A stretch of 64,000 bases of DNA from the NCBI RefSeq assembly GCF_021390395.1, contig NZ_JAJUWT010000022.1, forward strand, positions 124,001 to 188,000, read 5' to 3'. The notes beneath the pieces were generated by a model. It saw only the letters and a program-made list of their open reading frames with translations. It did no database searches and was not told the origin of the DNA. The stretch is from Saccharothrix sp. S26. GTDB taxonomy: Bacteria; Actinomycetota; Actinomycetes; Mycobacteriales; Pseudonocardiaceae. Shown here piece by piece: positions 14,639-59,884 of the stretch; the stretch's first letter is position 1, and each line of letters opens with the position of its first letter. A program made the position numbers and the translations under genes.

Positions 14639-15110
14639 CCCGTCCACTGGCACGCCCTTCCCGCAAAACGAGGGCTTCGTGTCATCCCGCCGACCTGGCT
14701 CCGCCCTGCCGCACGTGTCAAGGGGAGCGCGGGTTCGGCTTTGCCCGCGGCCTTCACTGTGGGCCGCGCTCCCCTTGACGCGTGTGGTAGCCCGTAGGGA
14801 GGTCGGTGGGATGACACGAAACCCGGCCCCACAACACAACAGGGGCTTTCAGGCGTAGTTGGGGTCATCCTGCTGATCTGCCCGTCCGGCGAGGACTCTT
14901 TCATCTTTGCTTTTGAAGCTTTTCGTTTCTACCCCAAGCCGCTACTCACTCCCGGCTCGATTTGACATGGGGCCCTTACGGGCACTCCAGGCAGGCCAAA
15001 GCCGGCAGGCCCGGCGGGGAAAAGCGTCCCGCCAGGCCTGCCGGCTTCGACCAGCCTAAAGCACCCGAACCCATGTCAAATCGGGCCTCTGCGGTGGGGT
15101 TCCGGGTCCG
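14639..15110 (+). repeat. double-hairpin repeat element, copy 1
   Basis: 472 bases matched almost base for base by the reverse complement of 59323-59786. It has two large imperfect stem-loops. Hairpin A (14673-14823) has outer arms around GTGTCATCCCGCCGACCT and inner arms GTCAAGGGGAGCGCGG (14717-14732) / CCGCGCTCCCCTTGAC (14764-14779). Hairpin B (14958-15083) has outer arms CGATTTGACATGGG / CCCATGTCAAATCG and inner arms of GCCGGCAGGCC type. Between them lies a spacer whose first ~23 bases (about 14838-14860) differ between copies while the rest is conserved. No terminal inverted repeats, target duplication or protein are evident. It could be a MITE-like element, a BIME-like repeat or a structured RNA. 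Confidence 0.9.
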
Positions 15111-15162
15111 ATGTGGGGCTGTTGAGGCTGGTTTCGAGGTCCGTTGTGGTGATTGGGTTTTG

Positions 15163-16374
15163 TCACCAAGTGCTGTTGGACAGTCCGGTTCCGAGGTAGA
15201 TCTGGTCGAATCCGTTGCCGTCGTTGTCGTCGGTGTAGACGACCGTGATCTGTCCCCAGGCGTCGACGCCGAGTGCCGGTTCGTCCTGCCTGCCCGTGGC
15301 GGTCGACACGGTGGCCTGTCGTGGCAGGCGGCCGGTGACCGAGCCGTCCGCGTTGAGGCCCTGCGTGACGACGTCCTGGGCGTCCACCGCCGACACCACG
15401 ACGTTGATCTGGTCGTCGATGCCGATCTGCGGGTCCGCACCCGCGAGCACGGCATCCGCCGCGGTCCGTGCCGCACCGCCGGCGGTGAACGAGCGCACGC
15501 CCACCTGTGCCGTGCCGGTGTGGTCGGTTTCCCACGCGACCGCGTGGTCGCCGTTGAAGTTCGCTGCCACGACCGGCCGTCGTTGTTGGCCGTCGCCGGT
15601 GGCGTTGGCGACGCCCTGGGCGAGCTTCGCCCCGCCTGACGGGGTCAGGATCTTCCGGCCGATGTTGAAGTAGCCGTTGCCGTCGCCGTCCTCGTCCCAC
15701 ACCACGATCGCGTTGCCCGCCGCGCCCATGGCCACGTCCGGCCGTTGGTGGGTGCCGCCCGCGGTGTGGACCTGGGCCTCGTAGGTCTTCGCCGTCACGG
15801 ACGCGTAGCCGGCGATGCGGACCGTGGGGTTGGTGGAGGTCTGCTTGTCCTCCCACACGACGGCGAAGCCGGTGCCGTCGGGGTCGGCGGCGACGGCGGG
15901 GTTGAGCTGTTGGCCGTCGGTGCCGGCGTTGGCCCGCGCCGAGCCGGTGACCGTGCCGCTGGTGTTCAGCTCCCGCACCTGGATGTTGTAGTAGCCGTTG
16001 CCGTCGCCGTCGTCGGCCCACACGACGACCGCCGAGCCGTTGTCGTGCACGGCGACGTCCGGCTGCACGTGCCGCCAGGTGCCGGTGCCGCCGGTGGACA
16101 GCTTCTTCTCGTAGCGGGACACGCCGTCCTTGAACAGCCGGACCCACACGTCGCTGTGCGCGGGGTCGTCGGGCGTGGTGTCGTCGCGGTCGTCTTCCCA
16201 GACCACGGCGGTCCAGCCGTTGCGGACCGCGGACACGGCGGCGTTGTCCTGGTCGCCGGTGGCGGTGCTGTTCGCGGTGGTCCACGTGGCCGCCGCCGAG
16301 GCCGTCGTGGCGGCACCCAGCAGCAGGGGCGCGGCGAGCACCGGCGCCGCGATCATCATCGTCAGCTTCTTCAT
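15163..16374 (-). CDS. secreted FG-GAP/propeller-like protein with Asp-rich calcium-type loops
   Basis: 403 aa with a classical signal peptide (MKKLTMMIAAPVLAAPLLL, cleavage near ASAA). The mature part is made of repeated blades, each with a VVW-DxDGDGNGYxNI type loop (ADDGDGNGYYNI, DEDGDGNGYFNI, TDDNDGNGFDQI), resembling calcium-binding loops of VCBS/FG-GAP propellers. No catalytic motif is recognised. Its ATG overlaps the stop of the upstream phosphatase gene (ATGA), so the two are co-translated. It may bind or assist extracellular substrates of that phosphatase, or simply be a cell-surface propeller; function is not known. Confidence 0.75.
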   Translation of the reverse strand: MKKLTMMIAAPVLAAPLLLGAATTASAAATWTTANSTATGDQDNAAVSAVRNGWTAVVWEDDRDDTTPDDPAHSDVWVRLFKDGVSRYEKKLSTGGTGTWRHVQPDVAVHDNGSAVVVWADDGDGNGYYNIQVRELNTSGTVTGSARANAGTDGQQLNPAVAADPDGTGFAVVWEDKQTSTNPTVRIAGYASVTAKTYEAQVHTAGGTHQRPDVAMGAAGNAIVVWDEDGDGNGYFNIGRKILTPSGGAKLAQGVANATGDGQQRRPVVAANFNGDHAVAWETDHTGTAQVGVRSFTAGGAARTAADAVLAGADPQIGIDDQINVVVSAVDAQDVVTQGLNADGSVTGRLPRQATVSTATGRQDEPALGVDAWGQITVVYTDDNDGNGFDQIYLGTGLSNSTW

Positions 16375-17882
16375 GGCGCCTGCAATCCTGGGTTGCCTGC
16401 CTGGACGACGTAGCTCTGCAACGTGCGGACCGGGTAGTCCCGCGTGGTGACCCGGTCGACGAAGCGGAAGTCGACGTCCACCCGGGTCGGGGACGTGACG
16501 GTGCGGACGTAGCCGCGCAGGTTCTTGTAGAACTTCACGTGCGGGTTGAGGCTGGACAGGCCGGTGTCGGCGGCGCTGCCGTCACCGCCGGACGTGATCG
16601 ACGTGGTCACCAGCTCGGTGCCGACGACCCGGTCCTGCGCGGCGTAGTCGTTCATCAGGTCGGCCGCCCACGACCGGTGCACGTCACCGGTCAGCACCAC
16701 GGTGTTGCGCAGTCCCGCCGCGTCCCAGCCGCGCTGCAACCGGCCCCGGTTGGCGCTGTAGCCGTCCCACGAGTCCATCGACTTCGCGCCGTCGGCCGAG
16801 GCCAGCTTCTGCGCGAAGAACACCTGCTGCCCCAGGAAGTCCCAGGTGCCCAGCTTCTGCCGCATGCCGTCGAGCAACCACGCCTCCTGCGTGGCGCCGA
16901 GCAGGGTGCGGGCCGGGTCGTCGGCCTCCGGGCACACCTTCGTGCCGTCGCCGCACGCCTGGTCGTCGCGGTACTGGCGGGTGTCGAGCAGGTGGAACGT
17001 CGCCAGGCTGCCCCAACGCACCCGCCGGTACAGCTGCATGTTCTCCGCCACCGGCGCCTGCGCGGCGCGCAACGGCATGTGCTCGTAGTACGCCTTGTAC
17101 GCCGCCGCGCGCCGCACCTTGAAGTCGCCGGCGGGGGAGGTGTTGGCGCGCACCAGGTTCGCGTAGTTGTTCTCGACCTCGTGGTCGTCCCACACGACCA
17201 GCCACGGCGCGGCGGCGTGCGCGGCCTGAAGGTCGACGTCCGTCTTGTACTGCGCGTGCCGCACCCGGTAGTCGGCCAGGTTCGCGATCTCCGCCGACGG
17301 CGCGAACTGGCGCACCTTGGTGGTGCTCGCCCCGCCCTCGTAGATGTAGTCGCCCAGGTGCAGGATGAGGTCCGGGTTCTCCTCGGCCATGCGCCGGTAC
17401 GCGGTGAAGTAGCCCTCCTCGTAGTGCGAGCAGGAGGCGAACAGCATGGTCAGCGACGGGCTCGTGCCGACCGCCGGCGCGGTGACGCCGCGGCCGACGG
17501 GGGAGATGTGCCCGGCGGCGCGGAACCGGTAGAAGTACTCGCGGCCGGGCAGCAGGCCGGTCACCTCGACGTGCACGCTGTGCGCCCACGACTGCGTCGC
17601 GGTCGCCGTGCCGCTGCGCACGACCTGGGTGAACCGCTGGTCCGTCGCGACCTGCCAGTCCACCGCGACCGAGGTGCTGCCCATGCCGCCGAGGCCGTCG
17701 GCGTTGAGCGGGCTGGGCGCGAGGCGGGTCCAGATGACGAAGCCGTCCGCGGCGGGTTCACCGGAGGCGACGCCCAACGTGAACGGGTAGGAGATGGCGT
17801 TCGCGGTGGTGGGGGCGAGGACCGTCACGCCGGCGCTCGCGATGCCGCCGGCGATGAGCGTTCGTCGGGTCAGTGGGGACAT
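16371..17882 (-). CDS. phoD: alkaline phosphatase D (PhoD family), Tat-exported
   Basis: 503 aa from an ATG preceded by GAAGGAGA. The N-terminus SPLTRRTLIAGG is a twin-arginine signal. A PhoD N-terminal domain (about 40-140) precedes the phosphoesterase core. Metal-binding motifs visible are ASCSHYEEGY, LHLGDYIYEGG, WDDHEVENNYAN and GDVHRSWAAD. Known members are calcium/iron-dependent phosphodiesterases/phosphomonoesterases secreted under phosphate limitation. It leads a two-gene operon with the propeller protein at 15163. I found no clear tandem PHO box in the 260 bases upstream, only single TTCACC-like words. Confidence 0.93.
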   Translation of the reverse strand: MSPLTRRTLIAGGIASAGVTVLAPTTANAISYPFTLGVASGEPAADGFVIWTRLAPSPLNADGLGGMGSTSVAVDWQVATDQRFTQVVRSGTATATQSWAHSVHVEVTGLLPGREYFYRFRAAGHISPVGRGVTAPAVGTSPSLTMLFASCSHYEEGYFTAYRRMAEENPDLILHLGDYIYEGGASTTKVRQFAPSAEIANLADYRVRHAQYKTDVDLQAAHAAAPWLVVWDDHEVENNYANLVRANTSPAGDFKVRRAAAYKAYYEHMPLRAAQAPVAENMQLYRRVRWGSLATFHLLDTRQYRDDQACGDGTKVCPEADDPARTLLGATQEAWLLDGMRQKLGTWDFLGQQVFFAQKLASADGAKSMDSWDGYSANRGRLQRGWDAAGLRNTVVLTGDVHRSWAADLMNDYAAQDRVVGTELVTTSITSGGDGSAADTGLSSLNPHVKFYKNLRGYVRTVTSPTRVDVDFRFVDRVTTRDYPVRTLQSYVVQAGNPGLQAP

Positions 17883-18144
17883 CGGCTCTCCTTCGGTGCA
17901 GGGCCGGGAAGAACGCGTTCCGGTACTGCGTACACGCCGAAGGTGATCAGTGGCCATCCCCGACGTGTACGCCGGGTGGAGCGGCCGAAGCCGCCTCGGG
18001 CGCGGCCGACCGGCCGCCCACCGGAGCGGGGGCACGACTGCGCAGGTGAATGGCTGTCCAACTAGCCGATGTATTGGTTACAGAAGAACCTGGCGAATGC
18101 CGACGACACCCGCCGATCGGGAAATTCCATCGCGCGAGGGCCGG

Positions 18145-18585
18145 TCAGGCCGCGGTGAGGGCGTCGCGCAACGCCTCGAACGCCGCGTACTCCTCCTTCT
18201 GGTCCACCGGCAACTGGTAGGCGACCGAGAGCAGCTTCGGCACCGACGGGATCACCGTGAACCGGAACGTGCGGCCGTCCGTCGTCCTGACCACGAACCG
18301 GCCCTGGAAGTCGCGCCGGCGCACGGCGGCGCGGTTGACGTCGGTGATCGGCACCGGCGCGCCGGCCCGGATCACGCCCCGCTCCTCGTCCACCGGAACC
18401 ACCACGAGATCGGTCCCACCCGGCCGGAAGCCCACGACGAAGTCGGTGACGGTGGTGGTGCGCAGCACGATGAAGTTCTTCTGCCTGATCTCCGCCGCGT
18501 ACACCTTCGTGTAGCTCGCGCCGTCCTCGACCACCGAGTCGAAGGCGGCGTGCAGGGCGGCCTTGAGCTCTTCCTTGCTGGGCAT
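18145..18585 (-). CDS. conserved hypothetical protein
   Basis: 146 aa. The ATG at 18585 follows GGGAGGGG and a -10-like TACAGT (18620-18625), so the longer upstream reading is rejected. The protein starts with a short helix (SKEELKAALHAAFDSVV) and continues as alternating beta strands rich in Val, Thr and Arg. It has no signal peptide, membrane segment or cysteine motif, so it is probably a small cytosolic beta-rich fold. It lies just downstream of the LacI-type regulator gene on the same strand, with its own promoter-like box. I do not recognise the family. Confidence 0.7.
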   Translation of the reverse strand: MPSKEELKAALHAAFDSVVEDGASYTKVYAAEIRQKNFIVLRTTTVTDFVVGFRPGGTDLVVVPVDEERGVIRAGAPVPITDVNRAAVRRRDFQGRFVVRTTDGRTFRFTVIPSVPKLLSVAYQLPVDQKEEYAAFEALRDALTAA

Positions 18586-18645
18586 CGGGAAACCCCTCCC
18601 GGGCTCGAGGTGGCAGCGCACTGTACCGGTGCCCGCCGACACCGG

Positions 18646-19641
18646 TCAGCCGCGCGTGCTCTCCCGCACCACGAGCGAGAACGGCGTCCGCACGTGCTCC
18701 GGCGGCCGTCCCGGGTCGTCCACGCGCCGCCGCAGCAGGTCCACCGCGGCCCGCGCGATCGCCGCCTTGTCCGGCGCGACCGTGGTCAGCGACGGCAGGC
18801 TGTACCCGCCCTCCTCGGTGTTGTCGAACCCGACCACGGCCACGTCGTCCGGCACCCGCGCACCGCGTTCCGCCGCGGCCCGCACCGCGCCCACCGCCAG
18901 CAGGTCGTTGAAGCAGAACACCGCGTCCGGCGGCTCGACCGCGGCCAGCAGCCGCGACATCGCCTCCGCGCCGTCACGCCGGTGGTAGTTCACCGCGGTC
19001 GCGACCAGCTCCTCGCGCACCGGCAGCCCGGCTTCGGCGAGAGCCCTCCGGTAGCCCTCCAGGCGCTGCGCCGCCGTGCCCCGGTGGGGGTGCGCGCCGA
19101 TCGCCGCGATCCTCGTGCGCCCCAGCCCGACCAGGTGCGCCACGGCCACCCGCGCCGCCTCCACGTTGTCGATGCCGACGTGGTCGATCGGCAGGTCCAC
19201 CGAGTGCTCGCCCAGCATCACCACCGGGATGCCCGGCGCCAGCTCGCCGAAATCACCCGCCTGCAACGCCTCCGGGCTCACGATCGCACCGTCGATCATG
19301 TGCGGGCCGAGCGAGGCCAACGTGTCCCGCTCACCCTCGCGCGTGCCCAGGGTCTGCTCGATCAGCACGTTCCACTCGTGCTCCTGCGCCGCACCGAGCA
19401 CCAGCCCGGCCAGCTCCGCGAAGTACGGCACGACCAGCTCCGGCAGCACCAGTGCCAGGAAGCCGGTCCGGCCGCGACGCAGGTTGCGCGCGCCGAGGTG
19501 GGGCCGGTAGCCGGTGGCGGTCAGCGCCTCCTCGACCCGGCGGCGGTTCTCCGGCTTCACGAACGCGTACCCGTTGACCACGTTCGACACCGTCTTCACC
19601 GACACGCCGGCCAGCGCGGCGACGTCCTTGAGCGTGGCCAA
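18646..19641 (-). CDS. LacI-family transcriptional repressor
   Basis: 331 aa. The N-terminal helix-turn-helix TLKDVAALAGVSVKTVSNVVNG includes the hinge helix. It is followed by a periplasmic-binding-protein-like sugar-sensing domain (about 60-331; e.g. VVPYFAELAGLV and DAVFCFNDLLAVGAV). It is divergent from the secreted GH2 glycosidase at 19781. The 139-base gap holds a perfect LacI-type dyad, so it probably represses that gene and itself until a sugar from the glycosidase substrate is present. The inducer is not known. Confidence 0.93.
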   Translation of the reverse strand: MATLKDVAALAGVSVKTVSNVVNGYAFVKPENRRRVEEALTATGYRPHLGARNLRRGRTGFLALVLPELVVPYFAELAGLVLGAAQEHEWNVLIEQTLGTREGERDTLASLGPHMIDGAIVSPEALQAGDFGELAPGIPVVMLGEHSVDLPIDHVGIDNVEAARVAVAHLVGLGRTRIAAIGAHPHRGTAAQRLEGYRRALAEAGLPVREELVATAVNYHRRDGAEAMSRLLAAVEPPDAVFCFNDLLAVGAVRAAAERGARVPDDVAVVGFDNTEEGGYSLPSLTTVAPDKAAIARAAVDLLRRRVDDPGRPPEHVRTPFSLVVRESTRG

Positions 19642-19668
19642 GCGGCGCCTCCGGTCGTCTCGATCGCT

Positions 19669-19692
19669 TTACAACGTTGTACCAACGATGTA
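19669..19692. promoter_or_regulatory. LacI-type operator pair
   Basis: TACAACGTTGTA (19670-19681) is a perfect 12-base palindrome of the ACAACGTTGT type used by many LacI proteins. A second, imperfect half-match, CCAACGATGTAA, abuts it. It lies 28 bases from the regulator start and about 90 from the glycosidase start, placed to control both. Confidence 0.75.
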
Positions 19693-19780
19693 AGAACAAG
19701 AGAAGTGACCCAGGTCACTGCTGCACGCACCGCGTCACGAGCACCCACGTCACCGCACCCTGCCGATCGTGGAGCCACCC

Positions 19781-22504
19781 ATGCGCAAGCCGATGTCCGC
19801 CCTGACCGCACTGCTGGTCCTGGGCACCCTCGTCCTCGCCCTGCCCGGCACCGCCACCGCCGCCGTCTGGCAGCCCAAACCACCACCCCTCACCACCCCG
19901 TGGACCGCTCAGGTGTCGCCGACCAACGCGTTGCCCGAGTACCCGCGCCCCCAGCTGGTCCGCCCGGACTGGCTCAACCTCAACGGCGTGTGGGAGTTCA
20001 CGGGCGCACCGAACCTGTCCTCGCCACCGTTCGGCCGCCCACTCGCCGAGGGCGTCCTGGTGCCCTACCCGATCGAGTCCGCGCTGTCGGGCATCAAGCG
20101 GCACGAGGACCACATGTTCTACCGCCGCACGTTCACCACGCCGGCCGGGTGGAACGGCCGCCGGGTGAAGCTGAACTTCGGCGCGGTCACCTGGGAGACC
20201 CGCGCCTGGGTCAACGGCGTCGCCGTCGGCACGCACACCGGCGGGTTCGACGCGTTCACGTTCGACATCACCGACGCCCTGCGCGCCGGCGACAACGAGG
20301 TCATCGTCGGCGTGCGGTCCACCGTGGACGGCAGCCTGCACCCGATCGGCAAACAACGCCGCACCCCCGGCGGCATCTTCTACACCGCCGCCTCCGGCAT
20401 CTGGCAGACCGTGTGGCTCGAACCGGTCGCCCCCAACCACATCACGCGCCTGGACACCACGCCGGACGTGCCCGCCGGCGTCCTCGACCTGGTCGTCCAG
20501 GGCACCACGGGCCAACCCGTGCGCGCCGAGGTGCTCACCGGCGGCCGGGTCGTCGGCACGGCCACCGGCACCTCCGGCACCCACCTGCGCGTGCCGGTGC
20601 CCGACGCCCGGCTGTGGTCGCCCGACGACCCGTTCCTCTACGACCTGCGCGTCACCATGGGCAGCGACGTCGTCACCGGCTACTTCGGCATGAGGTCGCT
20701 GGGCAAGGCGATGGTCGGCGGCGTCATGCGACCGCTGCTCAACGGCAGGTTCGTCTTCCAACTGGGCACCCTCGACCAGGGCTACTGGCCCGACGGCGTC
20801 TACACCGCGCCCACCGACGCCGCCCTGCGGTTCGACCTGGAGCGGCAGAAGGCGCTGGGTTTCAACATGGTGCGCAAGCACATCAAGGTCGAGCCCGCCC
20901 GCTGGTACTACCACGCCGACCGGCTCGGCCTGATGGTGTGGCAGGACATGCCGTCGTTGGACGCCGTCGACGAGGTGCCCAGCGGCCGCGCCCACTTCGA
21001 GTCCGAACTGCGGCGCGTGATCGAGCAGCTCAAGGGCATCACGTCCATCGTGCAGTGGGTGCCGTTCAACGAGGGCTGGGGCGAGTACGACGCCGGCCGG
21101 ATCGTCGACCTCGTCCGGTCGATCGACACCACCCGCCTGGTCAACCACAACTCGGGCGCCAACTGCTGCGTCTCCGACCCCGACCCGGGCAACGGCGACG
21201 TCATCGACGACCACGCCTACCAGATGTCCGCCGGCACCCGGCCACCCGACGCCAACCGCGTCGCCGTGCTCGGCGAGTTCGGCGGCCTCGGCCGGCGGGT
21301 CACCGGCCACGAGTACCAACCGGGCGCGGGGTTCGCGTACGGCGAGCTCTACCCGGACGAGGCGTCGTTGACCGGGCGGTACGTGGAGATCACCAAGGAG
21401 GTCGGCCGGTTCGTGCACGCGCGGGGCCTGTCGGCGTCCGTCTACACCGAACCGTACGACGTGGAGAACGAGATCAACGGCCTCTACACCTACGACCGCC
21501 AGGTGCTCAAGGTGTCCGAAGCCCGCGTCCGCGAGGTCAACCGGCGGGTGCTGGCGATCGCCGACGGCACCGAGGTCGGCCGCGGCGAGGCGATCTCGCT
21601 GCGCGTCACCACCCCCGGCTACACCGACCGGCACCTGCGGCACCGGGACGGGCCGGCCCGCACCGACGTGATCTCCGACGACCTGGGCCGGCTGGACGCC
21701 ACCTTCTGGGCCAGGCCGGGGTTGGCCGACCCGGCGTGCCTGTCGTTCGAGTCGCGCAACTACCCCGGCCGGTTCCTGCGGCACTCCGCGTTCCGGGTGC
21801 GGTCCGACCAGGGCGACGGGTCGGCCGCGTTCGCTTCCGACGCCACGTTCTGCGCCCGCGCCGGGGCCGGCGGCACGGTGCTGGAGTCGCGCAACCTGCC
21901 CGGCCACTACCTGCGGCACTACCAGGAGAACGTCTACCTGGCCCGGTCCGGCGGGCCCAACCCGTGGGACGGCGCCACCAGCTTCGCGGCCGACACCACG
22001 TGGGCGGCCGTCGTGCCGCTGTGGCGCAGCGGCGCGGACCTCCCGCTGGACCAGGCGCGGTCGTTCCGGGTCACCACGCCCGGCTTCACCGACCGGTACC
22101 TGCGGCACCGCGACGGCCTCGCCCGCACCGACGTGGTCGACGCGGGCAGCCCGGCGCTGCTGAAGGCCGACGCGACGTTCGTCGTCCGGCGCGGGTTGGC
22201 CGAGCCGTCGTGCTACTCGTTCGAGTCGCGCAACTACCCGGGCCAGTACCTGCGGCACGCGCAGTTCCGGGTGCGGTTGGCCGCGTCGGACGGCAGCGAG
22301 CTGTTCCGGCGCGACGCGACGTTCTGCGCCCAGCCCGGTGTCGGCGGCGTGCGGTTGGCGTCGGTGAACGAGTTGGGCGCGAGCGTCCGGCACTACGCGG
22401 AAGAGGTGTGGGTGGCGGTGAACGGCGGCGCCCACACCTACGACAGCCCCACGTCGTACGACGCGGACGTGAGCTGGGCGGTGAGCGCGCCGTGGGCACC
22501 GTGA
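19781..22504 (+). CDS. secreted GH2 glycosidase with two AbfB (CBM42-like) domains
   Basis: 907 aa. The signal peptide spans ~1-32 (ALLVLGTLVLALPGTATAA). The GH2 sugar-binding and immunoglobulin-like domains lie at about 60-270. The TIM barrel carries acid/base Glu431 in FNEGWGEY and nucleophile Glu499 in LGEFGGLG. After ~600 come two tandem AbfB-type modules, each opening RVTTPGxTDRxLRHRDG and containing FESRNYPGxxLRH and DATFCA, typical of arabinofuranose-binding CBM42. This suggests an enzyme acting on arabinose- or galactose-decorated plant polysaccharide outside the cell. Exact specificity (beta-galactosidase, arabinosidase or other) cannot be read. It is probably controlled by the divergent LacI regulator. 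Confidence 0.93.
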   Translation: MRKPMSALTALLVLGTLVLALPGTATAAVWQPKPPPLTTPWTAQVSPTNALPEYPRPQLVRPDWLNLNGVWEFTGAPNLSSPPFGRPLAEGVLVPYPIESALSGIKRHEDHMFYRRTFTTPAGWNGRRVKLNFGAVTWETRAWVNGVAVGTHTGGFDAFTFDITDALRAGDNEVIVGVRSTVDGSLHPIGKQRRTPGGIFYTAASGIWQTVWLEPVAPNHITRLDTTPDVPAGVLDLVVQGTTGQPVRAEVLTGGRVVGTATGTSGTHLRVPVPDARLWSPDDPFLYDLRVTMGSDVVTGYFGMRSLGKAMVGGVMRPLLNGRFVFQLGTLDQGYWPDGVYTAPTDAALRFDLERQKALGFNMVRKHIKVEPARWYYHADRLGLMVWQDMPSLDAVDEVPSGRAHFESELRRVIEQLKGITSIVQWVPFNEGWGEYDAGRIVDLVRSIDTTRLVNHNSGANCCVSDPDPGNGDVIDDHAYQMSAGTRPPDANRVAVLGEFGGLGRRVTGHEYQPGAGFAYGELYPDEASLTGRYVEITKEVGRFVHARGLSASVYTEPYDVENEINGLYTYDRQVLKVSEARVREVNRRVLAIADGTEVGRGEAISLRVTTPGYTDRHLRHRDGPARTDVISDDLGRLDATFWARPGLADPACLSFESRNYPGRFLRHSAFRVRSDQGDGSAAFASDATFCARAGAGGTVLESRNLPGHYLRHYQENVYLARSGGPNPWDGATSFAADTTWAAVVPLWRSGADLPLDQARSFRVTTPGFTDRYLRHRDGLARTDVVDAGSPALLKADATFVVRRGLAEPSCYSFESRNYPGQYLRHAQFRVRLAASDGSELFRRDATFCAQPGVGGVRLASVNELGASVRHYAEEVWVAVNGGAHTYDSPTSYDADVSWAVSAPWAP

Positions 22505-22565
22505 CGCCGACACACCCGTGAGTCCTTTGTGGACCCGCACGGCGGTGCTGCTACCGTGCGGGTCC

Positions 22566-22862
22566 ATGAAGGGCTTCGCCGTGCTCGGCACGGTGCTGGT
22601 GTGCGTTCTCGCGCCGATCGCCATGGTGTACGGGTTGATGGCGTTCACGCCGACCGGCAGCTGCGACTACTCGGTGTCCGGTGTGTGCTCGTACGGGCGG
22701 TTGCCGATGATCGTGGCGTCCGGGGGGACCGCGCTGGTGTGGGCGGTGTCGGTCGTGCTGACCTGGGCGGGCACCCGCGGCCGGCCTCGGGTGTACGTGC
22801 CCTACGCGGCGCTCGTGGTGATCGTGCTGCTGCTCGTCGTGGCCGGGCGGGTGGCCGGGTAG
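22566..22862 (+). CDS. small membrane protein, three predicted helices
   Basis: 98 aa with three hydrophobic segments (AVLGTVLVCVLAPIAMVYGL, IVASGGTALVWAVSVVLTW, YAALVVIVLLLVVAG) and a short loop with two cysteines (SCDYSVSGVCSY). A TACCGT box eight bases before the ATG suggests a leaderless or nearly leaderless transcript. No family is recognised. Its last 61 bases overlap the end of the convergent membrane gene at 22802, which is unusual and leaves some doubt about one of the two ends. Confidence 0.7.
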   Translation: MKGFAVLGTVLVCVLAPIAMVYGLMAFTPTGSCDYSVSGVCSYGRLPMIVASGGTALVWAVSVVLTWAGTRGRPRVYVPYAALVVIVLLLVVAGRVAG

Positions 22863-23380: not shown

Positions 23381-23597
23381 GCTTTCGGACGATATTGCCG
23401 CTGGTAGCGGCCCTGGGAGTGCTGATCGACTACTCTCGGGGGTGCCGATCGACACGTGCCACCACGCCGCCACGATCGGGTGAACTCACACATCGACTCA
23501 AAGAAAACGCTGTTTTGCCTGCCCTCGAACGTCGGTTGAAACAAGGAGGCCGCCACCAACCCCCCCGATGCCACCCCGAAACCCCCACCCCGGGCCG

Positions 23598-23603
23598 TAA
23601 CCT
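23598..23603 (+). promoter_or_regulatory. -10 box for leaderless sensor kinase start
   Basis: TAACCT followed by exactly seven bases and the GTG at 23611. The same geometry recurs at 31930, 33593 and 49057. It fixes the kinase start, since no ribosome site lies near that GTG. Confidence 0.6.
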
Positions 23604-23610
23604 GCCGGAC

Positions 23611-49062: not shown

Positions 49063-49069
49063 GTGGACC

Positions 49070-50065: not shown

Positions 50066-50075
50066 CGTCCCACCG

Positions 50076-50093
50076 CGGGAGCTGTCGCTCCCG
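50076..50093 (+). terminator. short terminator hairpin after the GlxA-type regulator
   Basis: CGGGAGC / GCTCCCG arms around TGTC, 11 bases after the stop. Confidence 0.55.
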
Positions 50094-50295: not shown

Positions 50296-51705
50296 ATGAC
50301 CACTCCCGCCGCGGGTCCGACCGTTCCGCCCCCAGCCGGTCCGCCGACGCGGGCCGTGATCCCGTTGTCGGGGAAGGCGGTGCTCACCGCGGTGGTGGGG
50401 GTCGTGCTCGTGGTGGCCGCCGCGGTGACCGCCCTGTGGCTGACCCTCACCCCCGGCGCTGCCGATCCGGCCCGGGTGACCGTGCGGCTGGAGGTGCTGC
50501 GGATCGGGCTGAGCCTAGGGTTGGGCGGCGGCGGTCTGTTCGCGCTCTACCTGGCGTGGCGGCGGCAGCGTTCCACGGAGATCGCCCTGCTCCAGAAGGA
50601 ACGCGACCAGGCCGACGTGGCTCGCGCCTACGCCCTCCAAGAGCGCGTCGCCGCCGCCACCGAGGCCGACGCGGCCGCCCGCCGCATCACCGAGCTGTTC
50701 ACCAAGGCCGTCGAGCACCTCGGGGCGAGCGAGGCACCGGTCCGGCTGGGCGGGCTCTACGCGCTGGAACGGCTGGCCCAGGACAACCCCGGGCAGCGGC
50801 AGACCATCGTGAACGTTCTGTGCGCCTACCTGCGGATGCCGGTGGACCTGCCGCGGGAACCGCCCGACGACCCCGACGCGGACCGGCTTCGGCGGCGCGA
50901 GCACGAGGTCCGCCTGACCGCCCAACGCGTGCTGATCAGCCACCTTCGCCCCGGTGAGGACCTCGACCACCCCGACGTGGTGTTCTGGCCGGACCTCGAA
51001 CTCGACCTGACCGGCGTGGAACTGCACGACGTCGACTTCAGCGGCTGCCGCGTGCGCGCGCTGCGGCTGGCCGGCGCGACGCTCCTCGGCGAAGCCCGCT
51101 TCACCGGGGCGACCTTCACCGCCGACGCCACCTTCGAGCAGACCACGCTCGCCGGCGATGTCCGCTTCGACCGCTGCACCTTCGCGGGCCGCGCGCTGTT
51201 CCGCGGGATGACCTTCACCGGGAACATCGACTTCGCCGAGGCGAGGTTCGCGCGGGGTGCCCGGTTCGAAGGCACGTCGTTCGGGGCTGACGCCGGGTTC
51301 AGCGGGGCGGGGTTCGCCCGCAGCGCCTGGTTCACCGACACGACCTTCGCCCGCGAGGCCGAGTTCGGCGAGGTCCGCTTCGGCGGCAACGCCGAGTTCC
51401 GGGGCGCCGTCTTCACCGGCACCACGCGGTTCGTCGGCGCCACGTTCACGGCCAACGCCAACTTCCACGGCGTCGCCTTCCGCCACGACGTCAGCTTCCG
51501 CGAGGCCACCTTCGCCCGCAACGCGACCTTCCGCGGGGCCACGTTCGACGGCAACGTCGGCCTGCGCGACGCGACCTTCCGCAAGGACGCCGACTTCCAC
51601 GCCGCCGGCTTCGCCCACATCCCCCGGTTCACACCCGACCAGTTCCCCGCGGGCGTGCCGCAGGCACTGTCCCCGCCGAACCGGACGGACGACCTTCAGG
51701 GCTGA
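50296..51705 (+). CDS. membrane-anchored pentapeptide-repeat protein
   Basis: 469 aa. A Pro-rich start is followed by two membrane helices (VLTAVVGVVLVVAAAVTALW; GLSLGLGGGGLFALYLAW), a helical coiled-coil-like stretch (QKERDQADVARAYALQERV) and a region ELFTKAVEHLGASEAPVRLG typical of these proteins. From about residue 235 pentapeptide repeats begin (LTGVELHDVDFSG), continuing as FxxAxFxGATF units to the C-terminus, which should fold as a right-handed quadrilateral beta helix. The role is unknown; relatives are common in actinomycetes. Its stop overlaps the convergent MFS gene by 10 bases. Confidence 0.9.
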   Translation: MTTPAAGPTVPPPAGPPTRAVIPLSGKAVLTAVVGVVLVVAAAVTALWLTLTPGAADPARVTVRLEVLRIGLSLGLGGGGLFALYLAWRRQRSTEIALLQKERDQADVARAYALQERVAAATEADAAARRITELFTKAVEHLGASEAPVRLGGLYALERLAQDNPGQRQTIVNVLCAYLRMPVDLPREPPDDPDADRLRRREHEVRLTAQRVLISHLRPGEDLDHPDVVFWPDLELDLTGVELHDVDFSGCRVRALRLAGATLLGEARFTGATFTADATFEQTTLAGDVRFDRCTFAGRALFRGMTFTGNIDFAEARFARGARFEGTSFGADAGFSGAGFARSAWFTDTTFAREAEFGEVRFGGNAEFRGAVFTGTTRFVGATFTANANFHGVAFRHDVSFREATFARNATFRGATFDGNVGLRDATFRKDADFHAAGFAHIPRFTPDQFPAGVPQALSPPNRTDDLQG

Positions 51706-52931
51706 GCGTCGTTCTCCCGGAGGTTCCCGAACAGCGGCAGCAACAACAGCGAGGCCAACAGCACCGTGCCGGCGACGAAGAACGGGATCCTGATGCCGAA
51801 CGCGGTGCCGAGCACCCCGCTCATCGCGGCGCCGACGGGGATCCCGCTCCACCCGATCAGGCGGTAGGCGCCGCCCACGCGGCCCATGAACTGCCGCGGG
51901 ACCAGCCGCTGCCGGAGGGACGACGACTGCACGTTCCACACGACCAGTCCGAAGCCGCCGACGGCGTAGGCGGCGGCCAGCCACCACACCGAGCGACCGG
52001 CCCCGCAGGCCAGCAGTGACAGCCCGATCGCGGAGATGGACGACGCCATCGTCGCCGTGACGCCGATCTTCGCGCGGATGCGGGCCGCGACCAGCGTCGC
52101 GCCGAACCCGCCCACCGCACCGGCGGCGAGGACGAGCCCGAAAGCCGACTCCGGCGCGTCCAGCGTCGAGGTGACCAGCAGGACGAGCATGGTGTTGCCC
52201 AGCTGCACCGCCGCGGTCGCGATGCCGAGCACCAGCGCGAGGACGCGCAGACCGCGATGTCCCCAGAGCCAGCGCACACCCTCGCCGATGTCCTTCGCCA
52301 GGCTGCGGCGCACCCGGTCGGACCGGGGTTGCGGGGGAGTGGTGAGGCGCGTCAACGGCCGGACCAAGAGAGCTGCGACCAGGAACGTGACCGCGTCGAC
52401 GGCGAACGGGGCCGCGGTGGAGAACCCGAAGACCGTCGCCCCGGCCAGGGGCCCCAGGAGCTGGAGGACGATGACCTGCGAGCCCTGCATGCGCGCGTTC
52501 GCGCTCTCCAGACCAGCGCTCGGCACGATCTCCGGCACCAATGCGTTCGACGCGGTCAAGTAAAGGACCTGTGCGCAGCCCAACAACAACGTGAACACGG
52601 CCAGCGTCACCAAGGAGGGCGGACTGACGAGGATGACGACGGCGAACGTCCCCACGACCGCGGTCTGGCACAGACCGGTGAGCCACAGCAACCGGGCCCG
52701 CTGAACGCGGTCCACCAGCGCACCGCCCACCAGCGAGAACAGCAACCACGGCAGGCTGCCCGCGACGGTCGTCGCGCTCACGGCGGCCGCCGAGTCCGAC
52801 ACCGCGGCGGCGAGCAGGGGCAGCGCCGCGACGCGCATGCCGTCACCGAGCATCGAGACGGTGGAGGCCGACCACAGCAACGCGAACCCGCGGCCGTTCG
52901 AACGGCTCGTGCCCGCCTCGCTGCGAGTCAC
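51696..52931 (-). CDS. MFS transporter (MFS_3/EntS-like)
   Basis: 411 aa. The GTG start overlaps the stop of a 64-aa gene (GTGA), which favours it over a longer reading from 52976. Twelve hydrophobic segments are visible. FALLWSASTVSMLGDGMRVAA and GALVDRVQRARLL are typical of the macrolide-efflux/enterobactin-exporter branch. The likely role is export of a small molecule. The N-terminal tail is short and polar. The translational coupling with the small gene suggests they work together. Confidence 0.9.
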   Translation of the reverse strand: MTRSEAGTSRSNGRGFALLWSASTVSMLGDGMRVAALPLLAAAVSDSAAAVSATTVAGSLPWLLFSLVGGALVDRVQRARLLWLTGLCQTAVVGTFAVVILVSPPSLVTLAVFTLLLGCAQVLYLTASNALVPEIVPSAGLESANARMQGSQVIVLQLLGPLAGATVFGFSTAAPFAVDAVTFLVAALLVRPLTRLTTPPQPRSDRVRRSLAKDIGEGVRWLWGHRGLRVLALVLGIATAAVQLGNTMLVLLVTSTLDAPESAFGLVLAAGAVGGFGATLVAARIRAKIGVTATMASSISAIGLSLLACGAGRSVWWLAAAYAVGGFGLVVWNVQSSSLRQRLVPRQFMGRVGGAYRLIGWSGIPVGAAMSGVLGTAFGIRIPFFVAGTVLLASLLLLPLFGNLRENDAQP

Positions 52932-53122
52932 CCGCCGATCCGGGTGGTGAGCCACCCGGTCAGGGCATCGAGGCAACCCGGAGCCGGGTGGCCGCCGTCG
53001 TGCCGGTCGGACGGCCCGGAACCGCCCACCCCGGGCAGCGGCGCGCCCATGTCGGGCACGGCCAACGAACCGGCCAACGCCACCCCCGCGCCGGCGAACG
53101 CGACGCCGCGTGAGATCCCCAT
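52928..53122 (-). CDS. small hydrophobic/Gly-rich protein coupled to MFS gene
   Basis: 64 aa. The ATG has GATACT six bases upstream, fitting a leaderless start. The first ~25 residues are hydrophobic and signal-like (GVAFAGAGVALAGSLAV); the rest is Gly/Pro-rich (GAPLPGVGGSGPSDRHDGGH). Its TGA overlaps the MFS GTG, so ribosomes can pass from one to the other. No family recognised; it could also be just an upstream regulatory frame for the transporter. Confidence 0.55.
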   Translation of the reverse strand: MGISRGVAFAGAGVALAGSLAVPDMGAPLPGVGGSGPSDRHDGGHPAPGCLDALTGWLTTRIGG

Positions 53123-53161
53123 GGCCGCAGTATCCCGGTGATCACCCGGCCGTGGGCGTGA

Positions 53162-55204
<2,043 letters not shown>

Positions 55205-55213
55205 CCCCCGCCG

Positions 55214-56110
55214 CTACTCGCCCTCCCGCGCGGCCAACCAGCCGTCCAGCTCCGCCATCGCGGTCGCCCCGTCGGCGTAGAACCGGACCGCCTCGACCAG
55301 CGCCGCCACCCCGCCCGGGTAGTTCTCGCAGGTCCGCAGGATGCTCACCACGTCACCGCGGTCGGTGGGCAGGCGCGGCACCGACCCCGCGAACGGCAGG
55401 TCCCGCAGCACCAGGTCACGCCCCTCACGGGTGTCGAACCCCGGCGTGCGGAGCAGGATCTCCACCCCCGCGTGCAACGCCGTCGGCTGCTGCGCCCCAC
55501 GCTGAGGACGACCGGGCGACGCCTGCGGCAGGTAGTCGTCCACCAACCTGACCCACGCCTTCGCCCGCACCTCCTTCACCTCCACCCGCACCAGGCGGAA
55601 CGCGTCCGGGTGCGCCGCCGGGTGGTGCACCACCACCGACTGGTAGAACGGGTCCGACGCGATCAGCACCAACGTCGCGTTCGACGACTTCAACGCCGAC
55701 TTCGCCTCGGCCGCGTCCAGAATCCGGCACACGAAGATCAGCTCCGGGCCGGTCTTGCCGCCGAACACGTCGTACGCGACCTCCCCGAAGTGCACCGCCA
55801 TCCGCATCCGCAGCCGCGCACCGTGCGAATGGGCCGCGTTGTGCTCCCGCAGCTTCGCCGCCACGCTCGTCGGCAACCGGTCGACCAGCCGCGCCTTCGG
55901 CACCTCACCCGGCAGCACCACGATCAGGCTGTCACCCGCGTCGTCCACCGACTTGCCGTCCCACGGCAGCCCGCACTCCGCGAACGCATCCATCAACACC
56001 TGGTACATGCCCCCGCGCGCGGCGAGCCGCTGGTGGGTCGTGCGCGTCGGATCGCCGTAACCCTCCACGTCGACCACCACGAACGACCGGTGCACCGCAG
56101 CCGACCCCAT
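55214..56110 (-). CDS. class III nucleotide cyclase-like protein with C-terminal effector-associated domain
   Basis: 298 aa, ATG behind GGGGAGG. Residues ~1-175 resemble class III cyclases: Asp14 in VVVDVEGYGD and Asp60 in VDDAGDSLIVVLP sit at the two metal-Asp positions, then MRMAVHFGEVAYD. I cannot confirm the substrate-defining residues, so activity is open. Residues ~215-295 (VEILLRTPGFD, VSILRTCENYPGGVAALVEA) match the effector-associated domain pattern (EAD2-like), an adaptor helical domain known from predicted bacterial conflict systems, where EADs recruit matching effectors. No effector with the same domain is adjacent. Divergent from the CNNM gene. Confidence 0.8.
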   Translation of the reverse strand: MGSAAVHRSFVVVDVEGYGDPTRTTHQRLAARGGMYQVLMDAFAECGLPWDGKSVDDAGDSLIVVLPGEVPKARLVDRLPTSVAAKLREHNAAHSHGARLRMRMAVHFGEVAYDVFGGKTGPELIFVCRILDAAEAKSALKSSNATLVLIASDPFYQSVVVHHPAAHPDAFRLVRVEVKEVRAKAWVRLVDDYLPQASPGRPQRGAQQPTALHAGVEILLRTPGFDTREGRDLVLRDLPFAGSVPRLPTDRGDVVSILRTCENYPGGVAALVEAVRFYADGATAMAELDGWLAAREGE

Positions 56111-56210
56111 GCGACCTCCCCACGCCTGTTGTAGCCCAGTCGGTCGCTCGAAGGCAGCCGCTCCACTCGAAATGACCAACCCTCCGGTTGCGGGACGCCC
56201 CGGTTCGGGT

Positions 56211-57488
56211 ATGGAGTCGGGTGTGGACGGGTACGGGTGGACGATCGGGCTTGTCGCGGTGCTGGTGGCGCTGAACGCGCTGTTCGCGGGCAGCGAGATG
56301 GCGTTGATCAGCCTGCGCGAGGGGCAGCTGCGGGCGCTGGAGCGCGACGACAAGCCGTCCGCGAAGACACTCGTGCGCCTCGCACGCGACCCCAACCGGT
56401 TCCTGGCCACCATCCAGATCGGCATCACCCTGGCCGGGTTCCTCGCCTCGGCGACGGCCGCCGTGTCACTGGCCGCACCGCTCGTGCCGGCGCTGTCGTT
56501 CCTCGGCGAGGCCGCGGACGCCGTCGCGATCGCGCTGGTCACGATCGTGCTGACGTTCCTGACCCTGGTGTTCGGCGAGCTCGCGCCCAAGCGGCTCGCG
56601 ATGCAGTACGCGCTGCGCTGGGCACTGCTCGTGGCACGGCCGCTGCACGTGCTGTCCACCGCCTCGCGGCCCGCCGTGTGGGCGTTGAGCGCGTCCACGA
56701 ACGTCGTGGTCCGGCTGTTCGGCGGCAAACCGGAAGCCGAGTCCGAGCAGATGTCCGCGGAGGAGCTGCGCGAGCTGGTGTCCGCCCAACGCGGCCTCAA
56801 CGCCGAACAACGCATGATCATGACCGGGGCGCTGGAGATCACCGAGCGCCGCCTGCGCGAAGTCCTCGTGCCACGCCGGTCCGTCGTCACGCTGACCGCC
56901 GAGATGGACGTGCCGTCCGCCCGCGCCGAACTCGCCGCCTCCGGCCACTCCCGCGCACCCGTGGCCCGCGGCGGGCACCTCGACGACGTCGTCGGCGTCG
57001 TCCACCTGCGCGACCTGCTCGACGACGGCGCCAAGCTGATCGACCTCGCCCGGCCACCGGTCGTGTTCCCCGACTCGGTGCGGGTGTCCGACGCGCTGCG
57101 CCGGTTCAAGGCCGAGCGCGAGCAGATGGGCCTGGTCGTGGACGAGCACGGCGCGGTCGACGGCATCATCACCCTCGAAGACCTGCTGGAGGAGATCGTC
57201 GGCGAGATCCTCGACGAAACCGACCGCGACGTGATGGCCGTCCGCAACGCCGCGGACGGCTCACTCGTCCTGCCCGGCACGTTCCCGATGCACGACCTGT
57301 CCGACATCGGCGTCGAGCTGCCCGACGCGCCCGAGGGCGACTACGCCACCATCGCCGGCCTGGTGCTGGTCGTGCTCGGCCGCATCCCCGAACGCCCCGG
57401 CGACCGGATCACGATCTCCGGCTGGACCGCCGAGGTGCTGAAAGTCGAACACCACGCCATCACGTCGGTGCGCCTGCGCCGCCGCTGA
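56211..57488 (+). CDS. CNNM/CorC-type membrane protein with CBS pair
   Basis: 425 aa; a GTG at 56223 behind GGAG is an alternative start. The DUF21/CNNM membrane domain (about 1-190; NALFAGSEMALISLREGQLR, ATIQIGITLAGFLAS, FGELAPKRLAMQYAL) precedes a CBS pair (VLVPRRSVVTLTAEMDV, LVVDEHGAVDGIITLEDLLE) and a CorC_HlyC domain (EGDYATIAGLVLVVLGRIP). Members export or gate magnesium/sodium; older names call them hemolysin C. Standing divergent from the cyclase-EAD gene, with no clear partner downstream. Confidence 0.93.
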   Translation: MESGVDGYGWTIGLVAVLVALNALFAGSEMALISLREGQLRALERDDKPSAKTLVRLARDPNRFLATIQIGITLAGFLASATAAVSLAAPLVPALSFLGEAADAVAIALVTIVLTFLTLVFGELAPKRLAMQYALRWALLVARPLHVLSTASRPAVWALSASTNVVVRLFGGKPEAESEQMSAEELRELVSAQRGLNAEQRMIMTGALEITERRLREVLVPRRSVVTLTAEMDVPSARAELAASGHSRAPVARGGHLDDVVGVVHLRDLLDDGAKLIDLARPPVVFPDSVRVSDALRRFKAEREQMGLVVDEHGAVDGIITLEDLLEEIVGEILDETDRDVMAVRNAADGSLVLPGTFPMHDLSDIGVELPDAPEGDYATIAGLVLVVLGRIPERPGDRITISGWTAEVLKVEHHAITSVRLRRR

Positions 57489-57579
57489 CCGGTGGCGCAG
57501 GCGCACAGCCCAGGGCCGGCCCGCCTCTGCCCTGGCCCGCCACCGCCTGCCAACCCTGCTGCTTGCCAACCCTGCCGCG

Positions 57580-57650
57580 TGCCGACCTACCAGCCCTGCC
57601 GCCTGCCGACCTACCGACCTGTGCCGACCTACCAGCCCTGCCGCCTACCG
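57580..57650. repeat. 42-base direct repeat between genes
   Basis: The block starting TGCCGACCTACCAGCCCTGC at 57580 recurs at 57622, about 1.7 copies, made of shorter CTGCC/GACCTACC words that also run back to about 57540. It lies in the gap between the convergent CNNM and peptidase genes and touches the peptidase stop. Confidence 0.7.
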
Positions 57651-59060
57651 GCCTGCCGCCGCGACCCACGCCTCCAGGCCCGCCACGTCGCGCGGCAGCG
57701 CCGCCGACAGCACGCGGTTGCCGCCCTCGGTCACCACGACGTTCTCCTCCAGCCGCACGCCGATGCCCCGCAGCTCCGGCGGCACGGTCTCGTCGTTCGG
57801 GTGGAAGTACAAGCCGGGCTCCACGGCCAGCGTCATGCCGACCTCCAACGTGCCCTCGTGGTAGGCCTCGGCCCGCGAGTTCGCGCAGTCGTGCACGTCC
57901 AACCCGAGGAAGTGCCCGACGCCGCACGTGATGTAGCGGCGGTGGTGCTGGCCGTCCGGGTCCAGCGACTCCTCCACCGACACGGGCAGCAGGCCCCAGT
58001 CGTGCAAGCCCTCGGCGAGCACCCGCATCGCCTCCCGGTGGAAGTCCCGGTACGCCGCACCCGGCCGCACCACCGCCAACGCCGCCACCGACGCCCGTTC
58101 GATCAGCTCGTGCACCTGCCGCTGCGCCGGGCTGTACGCGCCGGACACGGGCAACGTCCGGGTGATGTCCGCGGTGTAGAGCGTGTCCAGCTCCACGCCC
58201 GCGTCCAGCAGCAACACGGAGTCCTCGGGCACGGGACCGTCGTTGCGCACCCAGTGCAGCACGGGCGCGTGCGGCCCGGCGGCCACGATCGAGGCGTACC
58301 CCGGCCCGTTGCCGGCGGTACGGGCCCGCCGGTCGAACGTCCCCTGCAACCACCGCTCGCCACCGCCCTTGACGGCGGCCTGCAACTCGGCCGCCACGTC
58401 GGCGAAGCCGAGGATCGTCGCGTCGACCGCGGCCTGGAGCTGGTCGACCTCCCAGTCATCCTTGACCCGCCGCAGCTCGGCCAGCACGGTGCGCAGCTGG
58501 GCGGTGTGGTCCGCGCCGGTCAACGCGTCCAGCAGCGGGTCGACACCCCAGGTCGCGTGCACGGCCGGCAGCCGCCCGCGCAGCGCCGACGGCAGCTCGT
58601 GCAGCGGGCGGCAGTGCACGCCCAGCGCCTCGCCCCACTCGGCCAGCCCGGGCACCGGCCCGATCCACAGCTCGCCGTCCCGGGCGTTGGCGAAGAAGTC
58701 CGGCTCGTCCGGCCCGGCGGGGGGCCGCAGGAACAGCTCGGCGTCGTGCCCACCGGCCACCGGCTGCATCACCAGCACCGCGCCCTCCGCGGCGCAGCCC
58801 GTCAACCAGGAGAAGTCGGAGTCGGGCCGGAACCCGTAGTCGGTGTCGTTGGACCGCACGGGAGCCCATCCCGCCGCCACGGCGATGCGCGCGCCGGGCA
58901 GCGCGGCACTGAGCCGATCCCGATGCGCCGCCGCTGCCTGCGCCGCGCCGGGCGCGACGCGGGCGGCGCGGTCGGCCGGGCCCCAGCCGTGCTGGACGAA
59001 CTCGCGGAACCCGGAGGCGTCGACGAGCTTGCTCGGGTCGCGGCGGGCAGGTTTGGTCAC
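57645..59060 (-). CDS. Xaa-Pro aminopeptidase (M24, PepP-like)
   Basis: 471 aa, GTG start. The N-terminal domain (about 45-175; NDTDYGFRPDSDFSWLTG) is the aminopeptidase-P creatinase-like part. The pita-bread catalytic domain carries the dinuclear metal ligands: Asp in LLLDAGVELD and YTADITR, His in GVGHFLGLDVHD, Glu in LAVEPGLYF and RLEENVVV. It removes the first residue before proline in peptides, in the cytosol. The gene end abuts the direct-repeat gap; its upstream side faces copy 2 of the double-hairpin element. Confidence 0.95.
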   Translation of the reverse strand: MTKPARRDPSKLVDASGFREFVQHGWGPADRAARVAPGAAQAAAAHRDRLSAALPGARIAVAAGWAPVRSNDTDYGFRPDSDFSWLTGCAAEGAVLVMQPVAGGHDAELFLRPPAGPDEPDFFANARDGELWIGPVPGLAEWGEALGVHCRPLHELPSALRGRLPAVHATWGVDPLLDALTGADHTAQLRTVLAELRRVKDDWEVDQLQAAVDATILGFADVAAELQAAVKGGGERWLQGTFDRRARTAGNGPGYASIVAAGPHAPVLHWVRNDGPVPEDSVLLLDAGVELDTLYTADITRTLPVSGAYSPAQRQVHELIERASVAALAVVRPGAAYRDFHREAMRVLAEGLHDWGLLPVSVEESLDPDGQHHRRYITCGVGHFLGLDVHDCANSRAEAYHEGTLEVGMTLAVEPGLYFHPNDETVPPELRGIGVRLEENVVVTEGGNRVLSAALPRDVAGLEAWVAAAGR

Positions 59061-59884
59061 CGTGGGCAGCCTTTCGGGTCGGGGCCGTGTGCGCGCCCGA
59101 CCGCGATCGGCGACCAGGCGACAACCACGATGCTCTCACCAACCCCGACCGCACCCCGTCACCCCATCACCCCCGTCACCCATCCCTCCACCTGTCATCC
59201 CTCCACCTGCCATGCCTCCCCGCCGCCGGGCCGGCCGTTTTATCCGGCTAACGTGAGAAATGCGGTTTAGGTTGTCAAAGGTTGCATCATTCACTCGACC
59301 GAGTGGTCCAACCCAACCGCAACGGACCCGGAGCCCCACCGCAGAGGCCCGATTTGACATGGGTTCGGGTGCTTTAGGCTGGTCGAAGCCGGCAGGTCTG
59401 GCGGGACGCTTTTCCCCGCCGGGCCTGCCGGCTTTGGCCTGCCTGGAGTGCCCGTAAGGGCCCCATGTCAAATCGAGCCGGGAGTGAGTAGCGGCTTGGG
59501 GTAGAAACGAAAAGCCAAAAGAAAAAGAGTCCTCGCCGGACGGGCAGATCAGCAGGATGACCCCAACCGCTGCGGGAAGTTCCTGTTTCGTCGTGGGGCC
59601 GGGTTTCGTGTCATCCCACCGACCTCCCTACGGGCTACCACACGCGTCAAGGGGAGCGCGGCCCACAGTGAAGGCCGCGGGCAAAGCTGAACCCGCGCTC
59701 CCCTTGACACGTGCGGCAGGGCGGAGCCAGGTCGGCGGGATGACACGAAGCCCTCGTTTTGCGGGAAGGGCGTGCCAGTGGACGGGTAGGCGCGGGGTGT
59801 GCGGGGTGGGTTTTGCTGAAACGGGCTCCTCTGCGTGGGCGATCCGGTAGGTAACACCTACGGCGACCTACGGCAGGTGAGTGG
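59061..59884. other. 824-base intergenic region holding repeat copy 2
   Basis: Between the divergent peptidase and membrane-hydrolase genes. It holds a 15-base tandem repeat CATCCCTCCACCTGT/C (59181-59210), the double-hairpin copy (59323-59786), and a GGTGAG ribosome site before the ATG at 59885. No gene is seen. Confidence 0.6.
59323..59786 (-). repeat. double-hairpin repeat element, copy 2 (inverted)
   Basis: 464 bases, the near-exact reverse complement of 14639-15110. Hairpins B and A come in mirrored order, with the same arms and only scattered substitutions. The main differences are the ~23-base variable stretch beside hairpin A and a small length change in the T-rich spacer. The flanking sequences are unrelated to copy 1, so the unit boundaries are sharp at CCCGTCCACTGG on one side and GGTTCCGGGTCCG (GGCTCCGGGTCCG here) on the other. 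Confidence 0.9.

Follow-up and report, generated by a model that had tools for sequence, protein, structure and literature searches.

Two near-identical palindromic stretches stand in opposite orientation about 44 kb apart in the genome of Saccharothrix sp. S26, and the question that this locus raises is what such a pair is and whether its arrangement means anything. The window analysed here is a stretch of 64,000 nucleotides of contig NZ_JAJUWT010000022.1 (positions 124,001 to 188,000). The original prediction offered three readings of the pair, namely that the copies promote inversion of the segment between them, that they form structured RNAs, or that they belong to a non-autonomous mobile family. 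The idea of a mobile family is borne out by dozens of dispersed copies and by orthologous sites that are occupied in some genomes and empty in others, and the idea of structured RNAs is favoured by compensated stems and strand-biased wobble pairs. Our preferred reading, to which we assign a probability of roughly 0.6 from sequence comparison, is that each composite joins members of two mobile repeat families, both small, non-coding, non-autonomous and independent of each other, of which module A would provide a terminator-like RNA 3' end and module B would fold on the opposite strand.

Inside the window, BLASTN aligns 14635-15116 of the forward strand with 59317-59790 of the reverse strand at 456 of 482 positions (95%, 8 gaps, E = 0.0), and the sequence outside this pair does not align between the copies, in agreement with the earlier description of near-identical reverse complements in unrelated surroundings. 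Since the copies differ by 5%, an assembly duplication of one locus is argued against. The sharp boundaries that had been claimed hold insofar as the flanks of the copies do not align, but are less sharp at site 2, the position of the second copy, where the stretch unmatched in relatives is longer than the aligned pair and includes a further repeat, module C, beside module B. Both copies contain two long imperfect palindromes, as predicted; those of copy 1, at site 1, give self-complementary matches with E = 2e-20 and 8e-18, and the 472-base stretch folds with z = -11.2 and -10.4 on its two strands, none of 100 shuffles being equally stable. The composite consists of module A (a hairpin of about 150 bp, a 17-nt core and a T-rich tail) and module B (a hairpin of about 134 bp), and its parts lie as follows.

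14639-14908, + strand (strand of the presumed RNA): module A, copy 1, with hairpin, linker and core; query positions 1-270, which recur as a separate dispersed repeat.
14672-14824, + strand: hairpin A, copy 1, with foot GTCATCCC / GGGATGAC; from the self-complementary match and the fold.
14880-14896, + strand: conserved core GCCCGTCCGGCGAGGAC, copy 1.
14897-14925, + strand: T-rich tail 3' of the core, copy 1 (end approximate); from the family tail profile.
14945-15110, - strand (presumed RNA strand): module B, copy 1; strand from conserved G-U pairs.
14954-15087, - strand: hairpin B, copy 1; from the self-complementary match and the alignment of B copies.
59145-59815, no strand: all of the site 2 sequence to which nothing corresponds in seven relatives (approximate limits).
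59218-59300, + strand: module C, a third repeated stretch adjoining module B at site 2 (limits approximate, by eye); a similar stretch lies beside B in L068 and at site 1 of G004 (L272).
59323-59488, + strand (presumed RNA strand): module B, copy 2.
59346-59479, + strand: hairpin B, copy 2.
59517-59786, - strand: module A, copy 2.
59529-59545, - strand: conserved core, copy 2.
59601-59753, - strand: hairpin A, copy 2.

Module C is about 80 bp long, with CGTTAGCCGGA-like and CAACCTTTGAC-like parts, and adjoins module B in several places (59218-59300, L068 and L272). Complete copies of module A in the genera examined run from the hairpin, with a foot such as CATCCC...GGGATG, through a linker and a repeat of the 5' foot motif (CATCC) to the core and the T-rich tail. 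Across 156 distinct tails, T makes up 64-81% at positions 3-6 after the core and averages 47% in the first 15 nt, compared with 14.5% at positions 31-45. The hairpin is absent between the direct repeats of the foot in several A copies, for example L131, L139, L150 and L297, which is the pattern expected from slippage across a palindrome. An explanation by a known element or relic found no support: no Rfam family matched anywhere in the window at its gathering score, a relaxed threshold returned only sub-threshold matches, of which nearly all are to microRNA hairpins and the best, itself such a hairpin, has E 0.0008 and 34 bits where the gathering score is 82, and no phage or plasmid record matched at E 1e-5. 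A plasmid or phage origin was accordingly rejected; the 14 viral-contig matches to the 17-mer, judged by eye among the matches listed, show no such hairpin context.

When the 472-base query was searched by BLASTN against the window's own genome (9.08 Mb) and its relatives, it split into two parts that recur separately as dispersed repeats. In the window's genome, positions 1-270 (module A) recur alone or as outward-facing pairs, and positions from about 314 to 472 (module B) recur mostly alone. The counts that follow for the composite, the core, the B foot, the order-wide search and the named records are all taken among the matches listed. A near-full composite of A and B occurs twice in the window's genome and also in G016 (84% and 77%) and G004 (81% and 80%). 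The exact 17-nt core has 20 occurrences in the window's genome (G000) and is present in 16 of the 25 genus genomes, with 27 in G007 and a maximum of 76 in G021, and the control gave no match in this genus-wide search. Across the order, 41 of 397 genomes contain it, 30 of them among the 79 of the window's family and 11 among the 318 outside, each of these 11 with a single match; at least two exact cores are found in 14 of the 79 sampled family genomes and in none of the 318 others (the order-wide control pattern gave one match each in two genomes, G139 and G053). The exact B foot is present in 10 of the 25 genus genomes, with about 31 copies in the window's genome (B arms 31/32). Genomes G007, G021, G001 and G003 have 22-76 A cores and no exact B foot, G017 and G020 have 12-13 B copies and no exact A core, and G019 has about 20 B copies and one core. 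These unlike distributions indicate that A and B are separate families. The same A architecture was recognised by eye in named records of Saccharothrix, itself a member of the Pseudonocardiaceae, and of Amycolatopsis, Prauserella, Saccharomonospora and Pseudonocardia.

Further observations concern the dispersal of the modules. The 17-mer also stands beside hairpin-like repeats in records of Streptomyces, Clostridia (Flavonifractor group) and Deltaproteobacteria (L143, L147, L155, L161, L166, L186, L188, L189 and others), sometimes twice on one contig; in a collection so large these distant matches could be due to chance, or the motif could be shared. In G004 and G010, the A cores of outward-facing pairs are spaced 343-539 bp apart among the places listed, mostly about 505-540 bp, and the paired outward form of A may be a mobile unit of its own. 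A transposon with module A at both ends was considered and set aside because a 4-kb outward pair on C10 holds ordinary genes, which we take to be relA-like, PPIase-like and hisS-like. At L074 (4290-5202), a second B end comes within 0.9 kb after a copy of module B, the sequence between the two being presumably transposase-like.

The comparison of orthologous sites shows that the elements come and go, as the sites are occupied in some relatives and empty in others. Eight site 2 loci were fetched out of 20 relatives with an M24 match, and 12 site 1 loci out of 22 with a PhoD match, both tallies including the window's own genome. Site 2 is empty in seven of the eight relatives fetched: its flanks, separated by about 670 bp in the window, lie only 27-61 bp apart, with the element absent, in G004, G010, G022, G016, G019, G017 and G006, while those of G014 are separated by about 3.6 kb that includes other genes. 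Among the 12 relatives at site 1, both modules are present in G016, A only in G010, B with module C in G004, a shortened B with a compensated change in its foot in G014, and neither module in the remaining eight, several of which, as judged by eye, have a plain G+C hairpin there instead. No target-site duplication around a whole element was recognised at sites 1 and 2, where the exact element ends are uncertain. The short direct repeats that were found, including CTGCCCGTCC, which opens A and recurs in its core, do not frame a whole element.

Both copies had been described as lying directly upstream of divergent or regulated genes. This is correct as to divergence for site 2, between 57645-59060 (- strand) and 59885-62416 (+ strand), and incorrect for site 1, which in the window lies between two minus-strand genes. 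In G016, G010 and G004, site 1 lies between a YjbR-like gene (PF04237, tested on the G010 copy) and a convergent gene. This YjbR-like gene, which in relatives stands between the epoxide hydrolase gene and the element (L277, L272 and L271), is missing from the window (14536-14640), and its absence is why site 1 of the window lies between two minus-strand genes. Repeated TTGGTC/ACCAAC palindromes occur directly before the epoxide hydrolase gene (14549-14603 of the window), where they look like a regulator's operator, and similar palindromes are found at the same place in G022, G010, G004 and G016.

The stems of both hairpins vary in a manner that preserves pairing. For hairpin A, the G007 set of 17 hairpins (13 distinct), recognised at 17 of 22 cores in 21 loci, shows both-sided changes in 14 of 51 pairs with 99.8% of cells paired; none of 500 shuffles reached this level, and slid controls gave 1-2 both-sided pairs. 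For hairpin B, both-sided changes were seen in 13 of 53 pairs in an alignment of 28 of 39 reference copies (132 nt, in the RNA direction), the other references differing in length, being shortened, or repeating a copy in reverse. In its middle, the G007 stem takes 10 different sequences in 17 copies with complementary arms in 16. A specially hypervariable, guide-like role for this 12-nt block was rejected as the linker is comparably variable, the mean pairwise difference of block and linker being 0.35 and 0.21 in G007 and 0.18 and 0.27 in nine G021 copies; the mid-stem is a free sequence under a pairing rule, and not proven hypermutation. Within the fetched loci, mostly of 1.5 kb, the block was seen nowhere but in the element arms, with four occurrences in L098, a locus with two elements.

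Because a G-U pair on one strand reads as an A-C mismatch on its complement, the ratio of the two shows which strand's fold is kept. Module A gives 41 G-U and 12 A-C contexts on the core strand, with 14:1 in subfamily S1, 9:2 in S2 (p = 0.065, alone not significant) and a reversed 2:7 in S3. Module B gives 15 G-U and 2 A-C contexts on the strand opposite to that of A in the composite, and at four positions a wobble pair is present in 21-27 of the 28 aligned copies. The count omits A hairpins of at least 200 nt (at least one, of 1687 nt), and other mismatches number 49 in A and 13 in B. Since the contexts are non-independent and a strand-biased mutation could act in the same way, the evidence is suggestive, and what it suggests is that the kept fold is that of the core strand for A, in two of three subfamilies, and of the opposite strand for B.

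The position of module A relative to genes was classified for 55 copies (19 from the window's own genome, 16 from G007 and 20 from others), 17 A copies and one B copy with uncallable neighbours being omitted. Convergent genes flank 30 of the 55, compared with 34 of the 193 gaps that form the background in the window's genome (Fisher 1.6e-7), and divergent genes flank three, compared with 50 of the 193 (Fisher 6e-4); no classified copy lies within a called gene. Figures are given for A because the classification counted some B copies on both strands. These figures count both members of an A pair and rest on a simple gene caller trained on the window and on background gaps from the window's genome that include element-holding ones, and some called neighbours are more than 1 kb away, so that genes were probably missed. 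The convergent enrichment is explained equally well by tolerance of insertion and by function, and the tolerance argument is also made for pneumococcal repeats (PMC3049150). In tandem gaps the two directions of A are equal, 11 and 11, which does not favour one-way termination.

It is near certain that modules A and B are mobile repeats scattered through these genomes, and likely, though unproven, that they serve as terminator-like 3' ends of RNAs. If module A is transcribed from the core strand, its RNA would fold into a long hairpin ahead of the core and a U-rich tract, and thus form a terminator-like 3' end; module B would fold on the other strand, and in the composite two RNAs would face each other and could set a two-way 3' boundary between convergent genes. 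The elements would persist mainly through tolerated insertion behind genes, some of them being used as 3'-end hairpins. As to the hallmarks of an intrinsic terminator, the T-rich tail is present, and a consensus terminator scan of 14400-15400 found no terminator-like site, the core stem having only about 4 bp. The reversed wobble bias of S3 counts against the core-strand RNA reading, as does the position of the site 2 copy between divergent genes against the terminator-like one. That no target-site duplication was recognised around an insert also weighs against the preferred reading.

An inversion switch for the 44-kb segment is the reading that the arrangement itself calls to mind, since recombination is conceivable between inverted repeats of about 474 bp that are 95% identical, and it is nevertheless extremely improbable. 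The two copies are two among many genome-wide, and relatives have the same gene junctions at either end of the segment: the epoxide hydrolase gene adjoins the 15163-16374 gene in seven of 12 fetched loci, the other five having none in the fetched stretch, and the M24 peptidase gene adjoins the 59885 gene in seven of eight. A fixed inversion is likewise unsupported, given these junctions. The relative order of PhoD and M24 is not universal, being reversed in G007 with an M24 that is 68% identical, and it is uninformative on inversion because both genes are inside the segment. On the preferred reading, the window copies are ordinary members of their families and their inverted arrangement is incidental. 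A different function could be imagined for module A as a regulatory RNA with two alternative folds, in which the 3' arm would pair either with the 5' arm or with the third copy of the foot that precedes the core, this competition switching the terminator. Among 126 elements with all three parts recognised, the third copy does vary together with the foot, matching in 14 of 18 elements whose arms agree on a sequence other than TCATCC, and in 67 of 87 with the common foot TCATCC. Shared descent and slippage between repeats could yield the same pattern, however, and the G021 elements keep TCATCC as their foot although their third copy drifts (GGATCC, AGATCC). In stability the long hairpin would also far exceed any 7-nt competitor, and we regard such a switch as quite improbable.

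A more serious alternative, though one that we still consider doubtful, is that the modules are purely selfish, MITE-like foldback DNA repeats moved in trans by a transposase, with arm pairing serving DNA recognition or arm-to-arm correction and the gene-end position reflecting tolerance. It accounts for orthologous sites that are both empty and occupied, and a convergent bias is reported for pneumococcal IS elements too (PMC3049150). It is also consistent with the variable block of G007, which changes on both arms with almost no intermediates, pairs 42-53 showing no one-sided change and one unpaired cell. Against it stand the T-rich tail, which is kept, and the wobble pairs, whose bias in A is towards one strand and in B towards the other (except in subfamily S3), and a search of the Y1 transposase family (PF01797) counts against it as well: there was no match in G000 or in any other genus genome with at least 12 cores, and the five of 25 genus genomes with a match, G005, G006, G012, G017 and G024, have 3, 3, 10, 0 and 2 cores. 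Outward-facing A pairs have symmetric ends, solo A and solo B do not, and there is no autonomous copy among the places listed. A REP/RAYT system for the modules was rejected as the cognate Y1 transposase was not detected in the window's genome. Retroposition by a resident reverse transcriptase was rejected because PF00078 has no match there either; it was not found in G000, G001, G003, G007, G010, G016 and G022 and was found in 10 of 25 genus genomes, including G004 and G021.

Returning to two families of mobile repeats with terminator-like RNA ends, a bolder version can be stated for module A, which we think rather unlikely. It would be a Pseudonocardiaceae family-wide mobile RNA element serving transcripts as a two-way boundary that is both portable and exchangeable: the core and U-tract would end transcripts, hairpin families would interchange at the same convergent gap, and the stem would be renewed by arm-to-arm copying so that its sequence drifts while its pairing stays perfect. 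Our literature searches returned no recognised description of modules A and B. If the preferred reading is true, a repeat system with no description found and absent from Rfam exists in a family known for antibiotic producers, and the 3' ends of many of its genes may be set by these modules. The same gap with the element, without it or with another hairpin would then offer natural replicates for the recruitment of hairpins as terminators. Many odd intergenic palindromes in genomes of the family would also be explained, with caution advised in calling such pairs inversion switches.

With many dispersed copies outside genes, no protein, a stable stem-loop and polymorphic orthologous sites, modules A and B belong to the small interspersed intergenic palindromic repeats of the ERIC, BOX and SPRITE kind. 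REP/BIME elements, which are associated with the RAYT (Y1) transposase, are dispersed palindromes, some in inverted pairs. Modules A and B resemble them in both respects and differ in that the Y1 family was not found in the window's genome or in the other core-rich genomes (at least 12 cores). ERIC or IRU elements are described in PMC2229807 as intergenic repeats of 127 bp with stable transcribed stem-loops whose orientation matters, and module B (134 bp) resembles them by description; a 5'-TA-3' end motif and a target duplication are tabulated there for ERIC, and no target duplication was recognised for our modules. The BOX repeats (boxA/B/C), as PMC3049150 describes them, are likewise modular composites of separately occurring repeats that proliferated in one lineage. 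Terminal repeats and target duplications are described for BOX and RUP, and a proposed IS partner for RUP (PMC2229807 and PMC3049150), features by which they seem to differ from modules A and B. SPRITE is also alike in being a dispersed hairpin with a U-rich tract (about 48% U, against 47% T after the core of module A) and in its enrichment between convergent genes, and for it, too, no target duplication is established and no IS ends match (PMC3049150). Compared with SPRITE by description, modules A and B are found in a G+C-rich genome, are longer and composite, carry a 17-nt core and a repeated foot motif, and are spread across genera of one actinobacterial family.
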